Virus record (IMG/VR): IMGVR_UViG_3300030019_000003 | Span: 62,001 to 126,000 of that record | DNA from: a virus | DNA length: 64,000 nt | Strand: one strand, 5' to 3' | Part shown: positions 30,457 through 62,753 of the stretch, piece after piece | Layout: every line of letters starts with the position of its first letter | Numbering within the stretch: the first letter of the stretch is position 1 | Translations under genes and position numbers: made by a program | The notes under the pieces: generated by a model | What the model saw: only the letters and a program-made list of their open reading frames with translations | Database searches by the model: none | Told to the model about the DNA's origin: nothing

Positions 30457-30475
30457 CATAAAGATATATTATACT
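30457..30475 (+). promoter_or_regulatory. TATATTAT-type promoter-like box
   Basis: CATAAAGATATATTATACT, 53 bases before the ATG at 30526, following the SLOG-gene hairpin. Confidence 0.62.
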
Positions 30476-53522: not shown

Positions 53523-53540
53523 TGCGTGATATATTATAAA
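53522..53540 (+). promoter_or_regulatory. TATATTAT-type promoter-like box
   Basis: ATGCGTGATATATTATAAA, exact core, 70 bases before the ATG at 53610. It overlaps the stop of the previous gene and no terminator precedes it. Confidence 0.52.
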
Positions 53541-57765: not shown

Positions 57766-58465
57766 TAATAATAATAATAAGCCGGTGTCGGCTATTACAT
57801 TAGTCACACCAGCTGTTTTTGAGCAATACCATGTAGATATTGATTATGTTGCAGCATCTAAGGCTATTAACAAACATTTAGAAGAGGGTGTTATACCTTA
57901 TGACATGTCAAAAATTTATGGTAGTGAACTAGCTACGGATGGAGCCATCGGGCAACGCCGATCGCCATCGTTTTCTGACATGTGCCATAATTCAGTACTA
58001 GAAGGGATGAACGAGGTTAAATTTGATTTTGAACTTGATTACAAAGATATGGTCGAGACAGGAATTGAATTTTATAAGTTATTTTTTAAAAGAAAAGTAG
58101 CGCTTGCAATAAAAGCTGAAAGTGATTCTCTAGAAGTAATAGAGGTTTTTCCTAAAGAAGAAATACCTTATGTTATCGTGGCTAATAAGCATGTTCCGTT
58201 TACAAAAAATAGTAAATATTTGCTAGATAGGGATAAACATGCTAGGGGTAAATTTATTGTTATATCAAACGTATTATATACAAATCACTTCTTATGGTAT
58301 TGTGTGTTTACTAAAATTGGTAAACAATATTTTGCGATACTTCTTCCACCGGAGATAGATACGCATGTTAGTGATAACTTTCCAGCTGAGTTTGGATGGG
58401 ATATACTTTCGACGCAGATAACTATTAGTAATTATAATAGAGCAAAGGATAAAAAAGATGACTAA
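57752..58465 (+). CDS. Unknown 237-aa protein with poly-Asn start (GTG)
   Basis: GTG at 57752 behind AAAGGGG. The N-terminus MEKTNNNNNKPVSA comes from an AAT triplet run (57762-57780), so its length could vary. The rest is alpha/beta (ITLVTPAVFEQYHVDIDYVAA; PYVIVANKHVPFTKNSKYLL). Overlaps the next gene by 8 bases. Not recognised. Confidence 0.52.
   Translation: MEKTNNNNNKPVSAITLVTPAVFEQYHVDIDYVAASKAINKHLEEGVIPYDMSKIYGSELATDGAIGQRRSPSFSDMCHNSVLEGMNEVKFDFELDYKDMVETGIEFYKLFFKRKVALAIKAESDSLEVIEVFPKEEIPYVIVANKHVPFTKNSKYLLDRDKHARGKFIVISNVLYTNHFLWYCVFTKIGKQYFAILLPPEIDTHVSDNFPAEFGWDILSTQITISNYNRAKDKKDD
57762..57780. repeat. AAT triplet run inside a gene
   Basis: About six AAT/ATA triplets, coding for Asn5 next to the start codon of the 237-aa gene. 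Same simple repeat as at 27985-28005. Confidence 0.8.
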
Positions 58466-59159
58466 AACTCAAAAAGATTTGTTCGTAGGCAAAACCATTA
58501 AAGACATAACAAACATTGGACATCACGGGTATAGTAAATTAAAAATAGAATTTACAGATGGTACCATTGTTGTATTGACACCAGAGGGTGATGAAATTTG
58601 TGGGTATGCTGGACTTTACTCTGAAAAAAGTAATTGTAGTCTACTTAGAGATGATGTGGAATATACTGCTGATACTAATTGGTTTGAAAACAATGACCTA
58701 GTTACTAGACCATTGCCTGTGATCGTTATTAAAAATAAGGACGATCTAAACAATTTTATTAATCAGAGTATTAGACATAGTCAATATGATCCTGCGGAAT
58801 GGCCAATAACACCATTTAATGTATTCGATACAGCGAGTGGTGGGTTATATGTTATAGCCGATACGATAGTTAACAAAATTAATAAACATATTGTTACTGA
58901 TTTGGTAATAATATTACATATTCGTTGTTCTGTATGTGGTGGCGATGTACCTGTCAGTTTTGAAATTGGCAATGGAATTGGTACTCCTGTGCCTACTAAA
59001 TGTTGCTGTTCAAAATGTGGTGCAGATCTTGGTGATAAGACAAATGCTGCTATTTGGTTAGGTATATCACCTATAAAACCATTCTTTAACTACATACTCA
59101 CAGATCCAGAGGATGTTAAGGAATTCAAAAACATGTTAGAAACATGGAAAGAAGCATAA
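58458..59159 (+). CDS. Zinc-ribbon-containing protein (233 aa)
   Basis: CSVCGG and a cysteine cluster TKCCCSKCGADLG (about 155-190) make a zinc ribbon in the C-terminal half. The N-terminal 85 residues are beta-rich (KDITNIGHHGYSKLKIEFTDGT). Unknown role. Starts inside the previous gene; stops one base before the terminase-like gene. Confidence 0.55.
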   Translation: MTKTQKDLFVGKTIKDITNIGHHGYSKLKIEFTDGTIVVLTPEGDEICGYAGLYSEKSNCSLLRDDVEYTADTNWFENNDLVTRPLPVIVIKNKDDLNNFINQSIRHSQYDPAEWPITPFNVFDTASGGLYVIADTIVNKINKHIVTDLVIILHIRCSVCGGDVPVSFEIGNGIGTPVPTKCCCSKCGADLGDKTNAAIWLGISPIKPFFNYILTDPEDVKEFKNMLETWKEA

Positions 59160-59160
59160 T

Positions 59161-60243
59161 ATGGTACTTTTTAAAGATGACTATCAATCCTCTCCAGTTA
59201 TAGATCTGTCTACTAGAAACATAACTTTTCTAGAGTATGCCTATAGTTTAAAAGAGTCAGGTATTAAAAATTGGGCATTCTGTCTAATATTACATAACGC
59301 AGAACTTATAGGCGTAGATCCTTTCTCTAAGGATCTTACTGTATTACAAAAAACCGCTATCATTCTTGAAGCAGCAGAAAATCCGTGGTATTTTTTTAGA
59401 GAGGTTGTTAGGGTACCTGCGCATGGCAATTGCGCGTCTAAATACTTTAAAGCAAATGCGTTTAGTATACCTATACTATGGTCACATCTTGCAGGTATCT
59501 CACTTTTAATTGCTGGGCCGAGGCAGGTAGGTAAATTATTACCTGTTGATATGCTACTAGAGTATAGTATCATTTTATCTGGTTATCATACATCAGAAAT
59601 ACTTTTCAAAGATGATAATATCCGCAGTATAAGTATTCTGACTATTCTAAATAACATAGAATTATTACCGGATTTTTTCAAAAGCAGTGTCACACCTCAA
59701 CATATTAAAGACCCTATAGAAAAATTAGTATGTAAACCTAATAGCACATGTATCAATACTAGTGTTGCAAATCAGATTGCTAAATACGCCGCGTTGGCAT
59801 ATCGCGGACAGACTTTTAATACTTTTGTAATTAGGGATGCCTTATTCGTAAAAAATCTAGATAAGTATATCACCAATGCTTTACCAAGTATGAACTACGC
59901 CAATGAACTTGTTGAGGCTAATTCTTTAGGAGGCATGATTGTTATCACGAACTATGATGATCTTAAACGTAAGGATTCAGAGGGATCTAAATATGTTTAT
60001 GATACCTTTGTTAAAAATCAGCCAGTTTGGGATGATACCCTTTATGATACTTTAAATTGTAACAATATTAAGGATACTTTTACTGTTAAAAAAGATGGTA
60101 AAGCTACGAGGTTGTTTCTTAATATTGATGCTAGTTATGCTAAAATAGGGTTTACGGAAGAAATGGTTAAACAACACATACTTGACAGTTGTATCGATAC
60201 TGAAAAATGCCCGTATGAATTCTTAGACCATTGGGTGATTTAA
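59161..60243 (+). CDS. Terminase-large-subunit-like ATPase domain with broken Walker motifs
   Basis: 360 residues, shorter than a terminase (about 500-650) and with no nuclease domain. The layout is that of phage terminase ATPases: NPWYFFREVVRVP (about 77-89), LLIAGPRQVGK (115-125) in the Walker A position, YRGQTFNTFVIRDALFV in the Walker B region and YITNALPSMNYANELVEA... GGMIVITNYDDLKRKDSEGS for the coupling motif. But the P-loop Thr/Ser is L126 and the Walker B Asp-Glu is replaced by R225-D226-A227. So it is probably inactive as an ATPase. It may be a regulatory relative of the terminase or a relic. Confidence 0.6.
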   Translation: MVLFKDDYQSSPVIDLSTRNITFLEYAYSLKESGIKNWAFCLILHNAELIGVDPFSKDLTVLQKTAIILEAAENPWYFFREVVRVPAHGNCASKYFKANAFSIPILWSHLAGISLLIAGPRQVGKLLPVDMLLEYSIILSGYHTSEILFKDDNIRSISILTILNNIELLPDFFKSSVTPQHIKDPIEKLVCKPNSTCINTSVANQIAKYAALAYRGQTFNTFVIRDALFVKNLDKYITNALPSMNYANELVEANSLGGMIVITNYDDLKRKDSEGSKYVYDTFVKNQPVWDDTLYDTLNCNNIKDTFTVKKDGKATRLFLNIDASYAKIGFTEEMVKQHILDSCIDTEKCPYEFLDHWVI

Positions 60244-60260: not shown

Positions 60261-61538
60261 ATGTTAGAGACACTACTTGCAAGTTATAATGATTTTATAG
60301 AAATATCTAAAAGTAATCCTATGTTAGCAGGTGCTATAGGTTTATGGGGTGCTGGGCTAGTTACGTGGTTAGCACGTAATATACCCAGCAGTATAGGATC
60401 ATTTATAGTGGCACAATTAACAACAAGGATGACGATGACAAATGTCTCGTCATCTACGTCTTGGGATAGCAATGAGTTACAGTTTAACGCCTTCGTCAAA
60501 TGGGTAAATAGCGCTGGGTATATAGGGTGGAGTCGCTCATTCACAATCACAACTGATGAAGATGTTGAACAAACTCCAGTACTTGTATTTGGTTTAGGAT
60601 CACATTTTTTTATTTATAAAGGAATATTCTTTTATATCTTTCGCAGAAGATTAGAGGCGGCCTCCAGTAACCAAGATAAACAGGAAATATCAGTTATTGG
60701 TTTAACACGTAATCGACAAAAACTTTTAGATCTTTATAACGCTTTTAAATACGTAAAAGATTTTAAAGAACTTTGTGTACGTAGCTGGAGAAAAGATGAA
60801 TGGATATACTCCGGATTTATTACCAAGCGGTCAATAGAAACAGTAGCTATAAATGAGAATATCCTTAGTGACATAATGGATAAACTTACCTTTTTTACAG
60901 AACATAAAGAATGGTACACCTCTAGGGGTATGTCTTATAAACAAACATTTCTTCTTCATGGTTTACCTGGTACTGGAAAGACCTCTCTTATCAAGGCGCT
61001 AGCGAGTTATTATAACCGAGATGTCTATACCATTAATCTAGGATTAATGACCGATACAGCACTTAGTAAGGCTATGGCTACTATTCGTAAAAATAGTATT
61101 ATTCTTTTCGAGGATTTTGACGCTAATAAAACAGTGCAAAAACGAAAAGTTAAAGGAGAGTCTATTTCATCTGATGAAATAGAGGTAGAAAGTACTGAAC
61201 CAGAGGAGTATTCGCCGTTGACGTTATCAGGCCTTCTTAATGAGTTAGACGGCATTATCTCATTAGACGATGTGATTGTGTTTATGACAACAAACCATAT
61301 CGAGAATATCGATAAGGCTATCTTACGTAAAGGCAGGGTTAATTTTATGTATGAGATAGGGCTACTTAAAGATGCTGAGATTAAAAAACAGATGATGGTT
61401 TATTATCCAGGTAAAAGTTTGTCTAATGATGTCACATATGAGGATATTGCCGGGTGTAATTTAGAAGCTTTATTCTTAGAGCATACTGATGATTATGAAA
61501 GTTTCTTAAATTCGTTACCACACGCTATTAAAAAATAA
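60261..61538 (+). CDS. BCS1-like AAA+ ATPase with membrane-anchor N-terminus
   Basis: 425 residues from ATG 60261 behind GGAAGG (an earlier TTG lies in the upstream gene). Residues 19-50 contain a hydrophobic segment (MLAGAIGLWGAGLVTWLARN), as in BCS1. A BCS1-type N-terminal domain follows, then the AAA+ domain: Walker A GLPGTGKTS (234-242), Walker B IILFEDFD with E284-D285, and sensor-1 MTTNHIENIDKAILRKGRVNFMYEIG, the characteristic BCS1/Rec-A-like NHxxxLDxALxRxGRxD order. BCS1 homologues remodel or translocate folded proteins at membranes; jumbo-phage copies are frequent but uncharacterised. It overlaps no neighbour and is followed by membrane-anchored paralogues. Confidence 0.82.
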   Translation: MLETLLASYNDFIEISKSNPMLAGAIGLWGAGLVTWLARNIPSSIGSFIVAQLTTRMTMTNVSSSTSWDSNELQFNAFVKWVNSAGYIGWSRSFTITTDEDVEQTPVLVFGLGSHFFIYKGIFFYIFRRRLEAASSNQDKQEISVIGLTRNRQKLLDLYNAFKYVKDFKELCVRSWRKDEWIYSGFITKRSIETVAINENILSDIMDKLTFFTEHKEWYTSRGMSYKQTFLLHGLPGTGKTSLIKALASYYNRDVYTINLGLMTDTALSKAMATIRKNSIILFEDFDANKTVQKRKVKGESISSDEIEVESTEPEEYSPLTLSGLLNELDGIISLDDVIVFMTTNHIENIDKAILRKGRVNFMYEIGLLKDAEIKKQMMVYYPGKSLSNDVTYEDIAGCNLEALFLEHTDDYESFLNSLPHAIKK

Positions 61539-61544
61539 GGAGTC

Positions 61545-61934
61545 ATGATGTGGATTTGGAATACCAGTACCATAATGGCGTTACTGTTTATTGCTTTCAT
61601 TATTATCGCCGTAATTACGTTATACATATATGTGTGCATACACGACACTACTAAAGAGAATGTTGTTACTAATGATACTGAGCTTGAGTATCATGCTACT
61701 ATACATATTTATTGTGTTTTAGATAATGTAGATGACTTAATACAACGTGGAAAGATTGGTAGCGCAACTAAGTATCTAGTAGATGGTTTAAGTATCTTGA
61801 ATAAAGAAGATACCATATCCGCTATTGAAATCGCCCGGTTAAAGAAATCTACTTCACAATTCAAAGATAGGTGGAACCATGTTATTGATATGCATGATAT
61901 CTATACTGGTCAAAAATGGATAAGGAAAACGTAG
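61545..61934 (+). CDS. Single-span membrane protein of the FKDRW family, copy 1 (129 aa)
   Basis: One membrane helix (about 11-32, IMALLFIAFIIIAVITLYIYVC). The soluble part contains NVDDLIQRGKIGSATKYLVDG and ends with FKDRWNHVIDMHDIYTG. The gene at 62277 has NVNELINTGKIAEATKLLCE and FKDRWDYVIMVFKIYKN, so the two are clear paralogues. AAGGAGTCAT precedes the start. Directly downstream of the BCS1-like gene, so a partner or substrate of that ATPase is possible. Confidence 0.65.
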   Translation: MMWIWNTSTIMALLFIAFIIIAVITLYIYVCIHDTTKENVVTNDTELEYHATIHIYCVLDNVDDLIQRGKIGSATKYLVDGLSILNKEDTISAIEIARLKKSTSQFKDRWNHVIDMHDIYTGQKWIRKT

Positions 61935-61982: not shown

Positions 61983-62261
61983 ATGGAAATAGACAATGTT
62001 GTTCCGACTGTTATCTTTAGAAAGGATAGTGTTGGAATGACATTTATGCTAAAAGATTTATTCGATAAAAAAGTTATAGAGGATAATACTAACTTTAGTA
62101 TCGTTATACCATCAGGCATAAGTGTCATTGGTTCTTTTAGAATTGGTAGTTCAGGTACTGCATTTGATTTTTCAGACGTACCTGATAAAAAGATTGTGAT
62201 GTCGGGTGGCGGACGTATATGCAATATAAAAACAAGAAAGTTATTTAACTTAACATTATAA
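61983..62261 (+). CDS. Unknown 92-aa protein between the FKDRW genes
   Basis: AGAAGGAAAA precedes the start. Beta-rich (MTFMLKDLFDKKVIEDNTNF; NFSIVIPSGISVIGSFRIG). Ends RICNIKTRKLFNLTL. Not recognised. Confidence 0.52.
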   Translation: MEIDNVVPTVIFRKDSVGMTFMLKDLFDKKVIEDNTNFSIVIPSGISVIGSFRIGSSGTAFDFSDVPDKKIVMSGGGRICNIKTRKLFNLTL

Positions 62262-62276
62262 AAGAAGGAAAATAGT

Positions 62277-62753
62277 ATGGAGTTTTTTATTCAAATGTTA
62301 CCAGTAATACTAATATCGTCTGGTATGGCTTATTTTGTGCAATGGTATTTTAACCATAAGCAGTTAGTGTCTGACTTAGAAGATCTAGATAAAGAACTTC
62401 CACTACCGACAGCTATTATGAAAAGTTTGGAACGTAATCTAATACGCACACTTGTAAATGTTAACGAACTTATTAATACAGGAAAAATAGCTGAAGCCAC
62501 AAAATTACTTTGTGAAACATGTTCTAGTGGTTGTGGCTCTAAAGCTACTTTTGAGTATGCGTTTTCAGCAGTGACGCTTGCTAGGAATGTGTCATCTTTT
62601 AAAGACCGGTGGGATTACGTTATCATGGTTTTCAAGATCTATAAGAATCTAAATGGTGATGGTGATCAAAATACCAATCTAGACATACCTGATGTTAGCC
62701 CTAAAGATTTAATAAAACAATGTGGGATTAACTTAAAGCTAGTAACGAGATAA
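62277..62753 (+). CDS. Single-span membrane protein of the FKDRW family, copy 2 (158 aa)
   Basis: Membrane helix at about 5-27 (IQMLPVILISSGMAYFVQWYF), then LVNVNELINTGKIAEATKLLCETC and FKDRWDYVIMVFKIY, paralogous to the gene at 61545. It has a longer C-terminal tail. AGAAGGAAAAT precedes the start. Confidence 0.65.
   Translation: MEFFIQMLPVILISSGMAYFVQWYFNHKQLVSDLEDLDKELPLPTAIMKSLERNLIRTLVNVNELINTGKIAEATKLLCETCSSGCGSKATFEYAFSAVTLARNVSSFKDRWDYVIMVFKIYKNLNGDGDQNTNLDIPDVSPKDLIKQCGINLKLVTR

Follow-up and report, generated by a model that had tools for sequence, protein, structure and literature searches.

The window analysed here is a stretch of 64,000 nucleotides that corresponds to positions 62,001–126,000 of a 252,159-bp virus record (IMG/VR record IMGVR_UViG_3300030019_000003, called G000 below). 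The gene under study, whose product we call P0001, occupies positions 59161–60243 on the forward strand, and the original prediction had described its product as terminase-like. The reading frame is intact, and all of the peptides quoted in that prediction (NPWYFFREV, GPRQVGK, NALPSMNYANELVEAN, and MIVITN) are present. Genes on the same strand flank it closely on both sides, with the stop of the preceding gene at 59159. The codon-usage value of the ORF was 0.156, which is inside the range of 20 neighbouring genes (0.10–0.28; wrong frames, −0.14 to 0.11), so the ORF fits its surroundings. The genes at the locus are as follows.

58458–59159, forward strand: upstream gene, 233 aa, in a tightly packed run shared with the pseudo-terminase; no family match
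59161–60243, forward strand: pseudo-terminase P0001, ATG start, 360 aa; ATPase-domain-only paralogue of the phiKZ-type terminase large subunit (TerL)
60261–61538, forward strand: BCS1-like AAA ATPase on the downstream side, probably starting with the ATG at 60261; common in phiKZ-like phages

The downstream gene matched the Pfam AAA family (1.1e-17) and, below the cut-off for that family, BCS1_N (1e-5), which bears out the BCS1-like ATPase originally named as a neighbour. It corresponds to phrog_7485 and weakly resembles IetA, a defence protein. A functional tie between this gene and the pseudo-terminase was considered and dropped, because 170 phage records contain a BCS1-like gene and most of them have no pseudo-terminase, and because the paralogues of P0001 described below have no neighbouring genes in common. 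Beside the BCS1-like gene, two small proteins (61545–61934 and 62277–62753) with N-terminal hydrophobic stretches form a paralogue pair, with 42% identity over 67 aa. Elsewhere in the window, GATATATTA was found at 8 sites against 2.9 expected (e.g., 53528–53536 and 30463–30471), several of them in intergenic gaps, and it is a possible phage promoter element; no such element lies immediately before ORF 59161–60243.

The kinship of P0001 was examined by profile searches, structure comparison, and alignment. It matched the PHROG profiles phrog_32359 (“terminase large subunit,” E = 1e-28) and phrog_2 (E = 8.7e-25). A Pfam search returned no match for P0001 or for P0002, a second TerL-like protein described below, and PADLOC returned none for P0001. 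With tblastn, 301 phage records were matched, almost all of them annotated or alignable as phiKZ-type TerL, and the best full-length matches had 28–31% identity over residues 1–359. P0001 was 36% identical (about 31–36%) to the N-terminal part of the TerL that its own phage encodes. An AlphaFold2 model built from 57 sequences had a pLDDT of 87.8 and a pTM of 0.89, and the top Foldseek match of this model was the ATPase domain of T4 gp17 (2o0h, E = 3.4e-10), with the T4 gp17 ATPase structures ranked above the P74-26 and D6E terminases. T4 gp17 was also found by sequence profile (E = 6e-4). P0001 is colinear with the entire TerL ATPase domain, and this full colinearity, together with the T4 gp17 fold, rules out a chance P-loop protein. 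The three approaches agree on a similarity far beyond chance, so the terminase-like identity held up, and P0001 is almost certainly a non-catalytic paralogue of TerL.

The motifs of P0001 were then compared with those of 87 TerLs in an alignment, which gave the following assignments.

59290–59397, forward strand: N-terminal module, residues 44–79 (LHNAELIGVDPFSKDLTVLQKTAIILEAAENPWYFF), the best-preserved part of P0001
59515–59538, forward strand: degenerate Walker A, residues 119–126, GPRQVGKL (QPRQTGKS in TerL)
59815–59844, forward strand: degenerate Walker B, residues 219–228, FNTFVIRDAL (VDE in TerL)
59932–59961, forward strand: degenerate coupling motif III, residues 258–267, GMIVITNYDD (TTxG in TerL)

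In Walker A, Lys125 is kept and the Ser/Thr of GK[ST] is replaced by Leu. In Walker B, the invariant Asp is Arg225 and the invariant catalytic Glu is Asp226, so the Leu after the P-loop Lys and the Arg-Asp-Ala in place of Asp-Glu, both noted originally, are confirmed by the alignment. Motif III reads ITNY, with the invariant Thr replaced by Asn264. All 87 TerLs have both the P-loop Lys and the catalytic Glu. P0001 keeps 12 of the 14 N-terminal invariants and 11 of the 20 in the core. The C-terminal RNase H-like nuclease domain is absent, as had been predicted: the C-terminal YEFLDHWVI aligns with “RDFLNLW” at the boundary between the ATPase and nuclease domains of TerL, the ORF ends there, and the next gene probably starts 18 bp on. 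Because of the changed motifs and the missing nuclease, P0001 lacks the features that define TerL, although it keeps the TerL fold. The claim that its nucleotide-binding residues are lost holds in part: the Mg-binding and catalytic residues are gone, but the P-loop Lys is kept and the Glu has become Asp. Judged from these residues, P0001 would not hydrolyse ATP. That it is still an ATPase through a changed site, with Lys125 and with Asp226 for Glu, is very unlikely; the retained Lys and the Arg-Gln upstream of it speak for such a site, as does one paralogue with an intact P-loop (GRQDGKT, see below), but substitutions affect the Mg-binding Ser/Thr, the Walker B Asp, the catalytic Glu, and also the Thr of motif III, and other copies have lost the Lys as well.

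A search of the same genome for an active terminase located an intact TerL, which is split by an intron. This gene and two associated features are listed here.

G000:C1, about 134.6–136.2 kb, reverse strand: intact TerL of the window phage, with full motifs and the nuclease half
G000:C1, about 135.1–135.5 kb (L005:14456–14071), reverse strand: group I intron in TerL (Rfam RF00028, 52.2 bits, E = 2.7e-12)
G000:C1, about 131.9–132.7 kb (L005:10910–11716): P0002, 268 aa, degenerate TerL-like protein, lying ∼1 kb away from the intact TerL

The intron lies between Walker B and motif III, so that exon 1 encodes QPRQTGKS and VDE, and exon 2 encodes TTPG and the nuclease half. The two halves are in different frames, which join once the 433-base stretch between two GGCGGC copies at the intron junctions is omitted. 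There is no endonuclease gene within the intron. The TerL frames of two other IMG/VR loci (L107 and L144) break off at the same position, and no intron was detected in them by Rfam at the gathering threshold. The working TerL is ∼13 kb from the P0001 gene and on the opposite strand, in agreement with the earlier statement that P0001 lies outside the packaging and structural genes. P0001 is therefore not the sole packaging ATPase of this genome, and the separate intact gene excludes the possibility that P0001 is a fragment of the real TerL. The first half of this TerL is 44–54% identical to the TerLs of phiKZ and Burkholderia phage FLC9. A 639-codon open frame of the same phage weakly resembles chimallin (E = 8e-9, 23% identity), which suggests that this phage, of the phiKZ kind, probably forms a phage nucleus.

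P0002 carries the sequence marks SENPWYYFREV and LRLGRRGVLNTS, and its resemblance to TerL is clear only in its first part (PHROG, E = 0.0016). A profile of TerL plus paralogues matched it with E = 6.8e-39 over model positions 9–177, although this profile itself contains P0002. Its P-loop is unrecognisable, and it is shorter and more degenerate than P0001. Its structural model was poor (pLDDT 56), and this model was left out of further analysis.

TerL is regarded as a single-copy catalytic core gene and serves as a phage marker. When whole records, about 105 in number, were searched with the profile of TerL plus paralogues, ∼6 of them carried a paralogue, in a sample biased toward finding carriers. 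The further ATPase-length paralogues, each accompanied by a full-length TerL in its phage, are as follows.

Vibrio phage pir03: 321 aa, P-loop PRQRGRS
Vibrio phage Yong MS32, with its sister strains MS31, XC31, and XC32: 336 aa, GRQDGKT intact, DN for DE
Vibrio phage BONAISHI: 310 aa, P-loop PRQAGGT
IMG/VR record G028: 345 aa, P-loop PRQHHRE
IMG/VR record G060: 353 aa, P-loop RQQRRV

The three paralogues from isolates are hypothetical proteins in GenBank. The catalytic Glu is replaced in all seven paralogues and the P-loop Lys is lost in five of the seven, with the reservation that the alignment near Walker B is uncertain for the most diverged rows, BONAISHI and P0002. The similar changes in relatives, where conservation of the altered motifs had been proposed as a check, fit a pseudo-terminase. 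E70, N74, and Y77 in the N-terminal arm and R121 in the P-loop are kept in all seven. The paralogues are 16–29% identical to one another over the alignment, and the fully colinear copies (the window phage, G028, and G060) are of similar design and end at the same domain boundary. The paralogues are located in variable accessory regions, and each is almost confined to its own phage; the only orthologues of P0001 found were identical copies.

We next considered the origin of these copies. In a maximum-likelihood tree, the paralogues were scattered among the TerLs on very long branches (1.7–7.1, compared with a TerL median of 0.36), and P0001 fell within a large clade containing its own phage's TerL. 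The G028 and G060 copies were sisters (100/97) near their own TerLs. A single clade of all seven paralogues was rejected (AU p = 0.024, with a long-branch caveat), which disfavours one ancient origin for all copies. The paralogues therefore probably arose more than once, by several duplications, although the long branches make multiple origins suggestive rather than firm. The sister relationship of the G028 and G060 copies indicates that one dead copy seems older than the split of the two phages, and since these copies are 29% identical whereas the TerLs of the same phages are 70% identical, they appear to have been kept while changing fast.

These data bear on the idea that P0001 is a relic, i.e., a duplicate in decay that no longer serves a function. 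The very long branches, the restriction of P0001 orthologues to identical copies, and the short, degenerate, and poorly modelled P0002 would fit such decay. However, P0001 has an intact frame, normal codon usage and gene spacing, and a confidently predicted fold, and two phages with TerLs only 70% identical both still carry a member of the sister pair. The several origins also count against a simple relic, as does the preserved N-terminal arm, which was kept while the Glu was lost in every copy. We consider a relic unlikely.

The arm, residues 44–79 in P0001, was also found outside terminases. A module of ∼33 aa, with the consensus N..L...DP[FWYH].P.LT.EQK..I.EEC..NP.YF[FY] and ending directly after YFF, is found by itself in 11 proteins encoded by 10 other jumbo phages (loci L037, L174, L175, L176, L177 with two, L178, L179, L262, L263, and L264), among them Erwinia phage Kwan, Pseudomonas phage Noxifer, and IMG/VR records. 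The remainder of these 11 proteins has no evident similarity to TerL. Because the module travels without the motor, it is most simply read as a binding element. To our knowledge, no small terminase subunit (TerS) has been identified for phiKZ-type phages. A published comparison credits a classical TerS to another group of jumbo phages (PMC7824862), and residues 1–58 of the P22 TerL are enough for TerS binding (PMC9611059). The recurring arm module points to a TerS-equivalent partner in phiKZ-like phages and could serve as bait for finding it.

Based on these results, we suggest, with a little under even confidence, that P0001 works by binding and has a regulatory role. In this proposal, the ATPase domain of TerL was duplicated and cut at the junction with the nuclease domain, and the Mg-binding and catalytic residues were lost, while the fold was retained and, most of all, the N-terminal arm. 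The product would then occupy the surfaces of TerL that serve its packaging partner (the portal or a TerS equivalent) or other TerL subunits, and the assembly of the motor would be slowed or gated. The target may be the phage's own TerL, in which case the timing of packaging would be affected, or the TerL of a co-infecting jumbo phage. In T4, a TerL ring takes up one dead subunit, and such a ring shows less DNA engagement, more failures, slower movement, and more pauses (PMC8589836). Since T4 rings accept a dead subunit and then falter, such a subunit would throttle a motor effectively, and the lone arm modules in 11 proteins are as expected if the arm binds. Against this role, the fast evolution of the copies also fits weak constraint, only ∼6 of ∼105 records in a sample biased toward finding them carry a copy, the paralogues are without conserved neighbours, and the needs of the fold alone may explain the retention of the arm.

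Two more specific uses of a dead subunit can be set beside this regulatory role. In the first, P0001 would act as a weapon between phages, stalling the TerL motor of a co-infecting jumbo phage or capturing its packaging partner. The variable accessory location, the nearly private copies, their rapid divergence, and the slowing of a TerL ring by a dead subunit (PMC8589836) are in keeping with this, and co-infecting nucleus-forming phages are known to interfere with one another through an intron endonuclease (PMC12908238). We regard it as improbable, because P0001 is ∼31–36% identical to its own TerL and ∼30% to others, with no obvious foreign match, and because phage nuclei keep the genomes apart. 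In the second, which is more doubtful still, P0001 would be a decoy that binds immune receptors of the Avs1–3 type without triggering them and so shields the real TerL. Avs1–4 recognise TerL or portal (PMC12931631), the Avs3–terminase complex 8dgc was among the structural matches of the P0001 model, and a copy reduced to the ATPase domain, unable to hydrolyse ATP and with a surface that drifts, would be suitable for this purpose, but the lone arm module in other proteins is left unexplained. As a broader and more tentative extension of the binding role, phiKZ-type jumbo phages may repeatedly derive non-catalytic motor subunits from TerL and reuse the 33-residue arm as a portable docking module, which would amount to an undescribed layer of packaging control or sabotage.

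We found no description in the open-access literature of a naturally dead, ATPase-only TerL paralogue in phages, or of a dead or duplicated TerL in jumbo phages; P0001 is a pseudoenzyme derived from TerL. Dead ATPase-only copies are annotated as hypothetical proteins, or would be named terminases on the basis of PHROG matches. Should such copies take part in the motor or gate it, heteromeric packaging motors may exist in nature, a situation that has so far been probed only with artificial mutants in T4 single-molecule work.

Among known systems, P0001 resembles the phiKZ-type TerL (phiKZ gp25, PHROG 2/32359) over the whole ATPase domain and shares with it the invariants T18, E70, N74, Y77, R80, E81, R121, Q122, and P170; unlike it, P0001 lacks GK[ST], DE, TTxG, and the nuclease domain, and is encoded away from the structural genes. 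The T4 gp17 ATPase domain (2o0h, 3cpe) is its best structural match, but P0001 is only ∼13% identical to gp17 and has neither its catalytic residues nor its nuclease domain. The paralogues of pir03, BONAISHI, Yong MS31/MS32/XC31/XC32, G028, and G060 share with P0001 the length of an ATPase domain, the lost Glu, an intact TerL elsewhere in the genome, and an accessory location, although the MS32 copy differs in retaining Walker A. A further parallel is with the ATPase-dead gp17 mutants in T4 motors, in which a dead TerL subunit stands beside active ones (PMC8589836); those mutants were made in the laboratory, whereas P0001, known here from its sequence, is a natural and separate ATPase-only gene.
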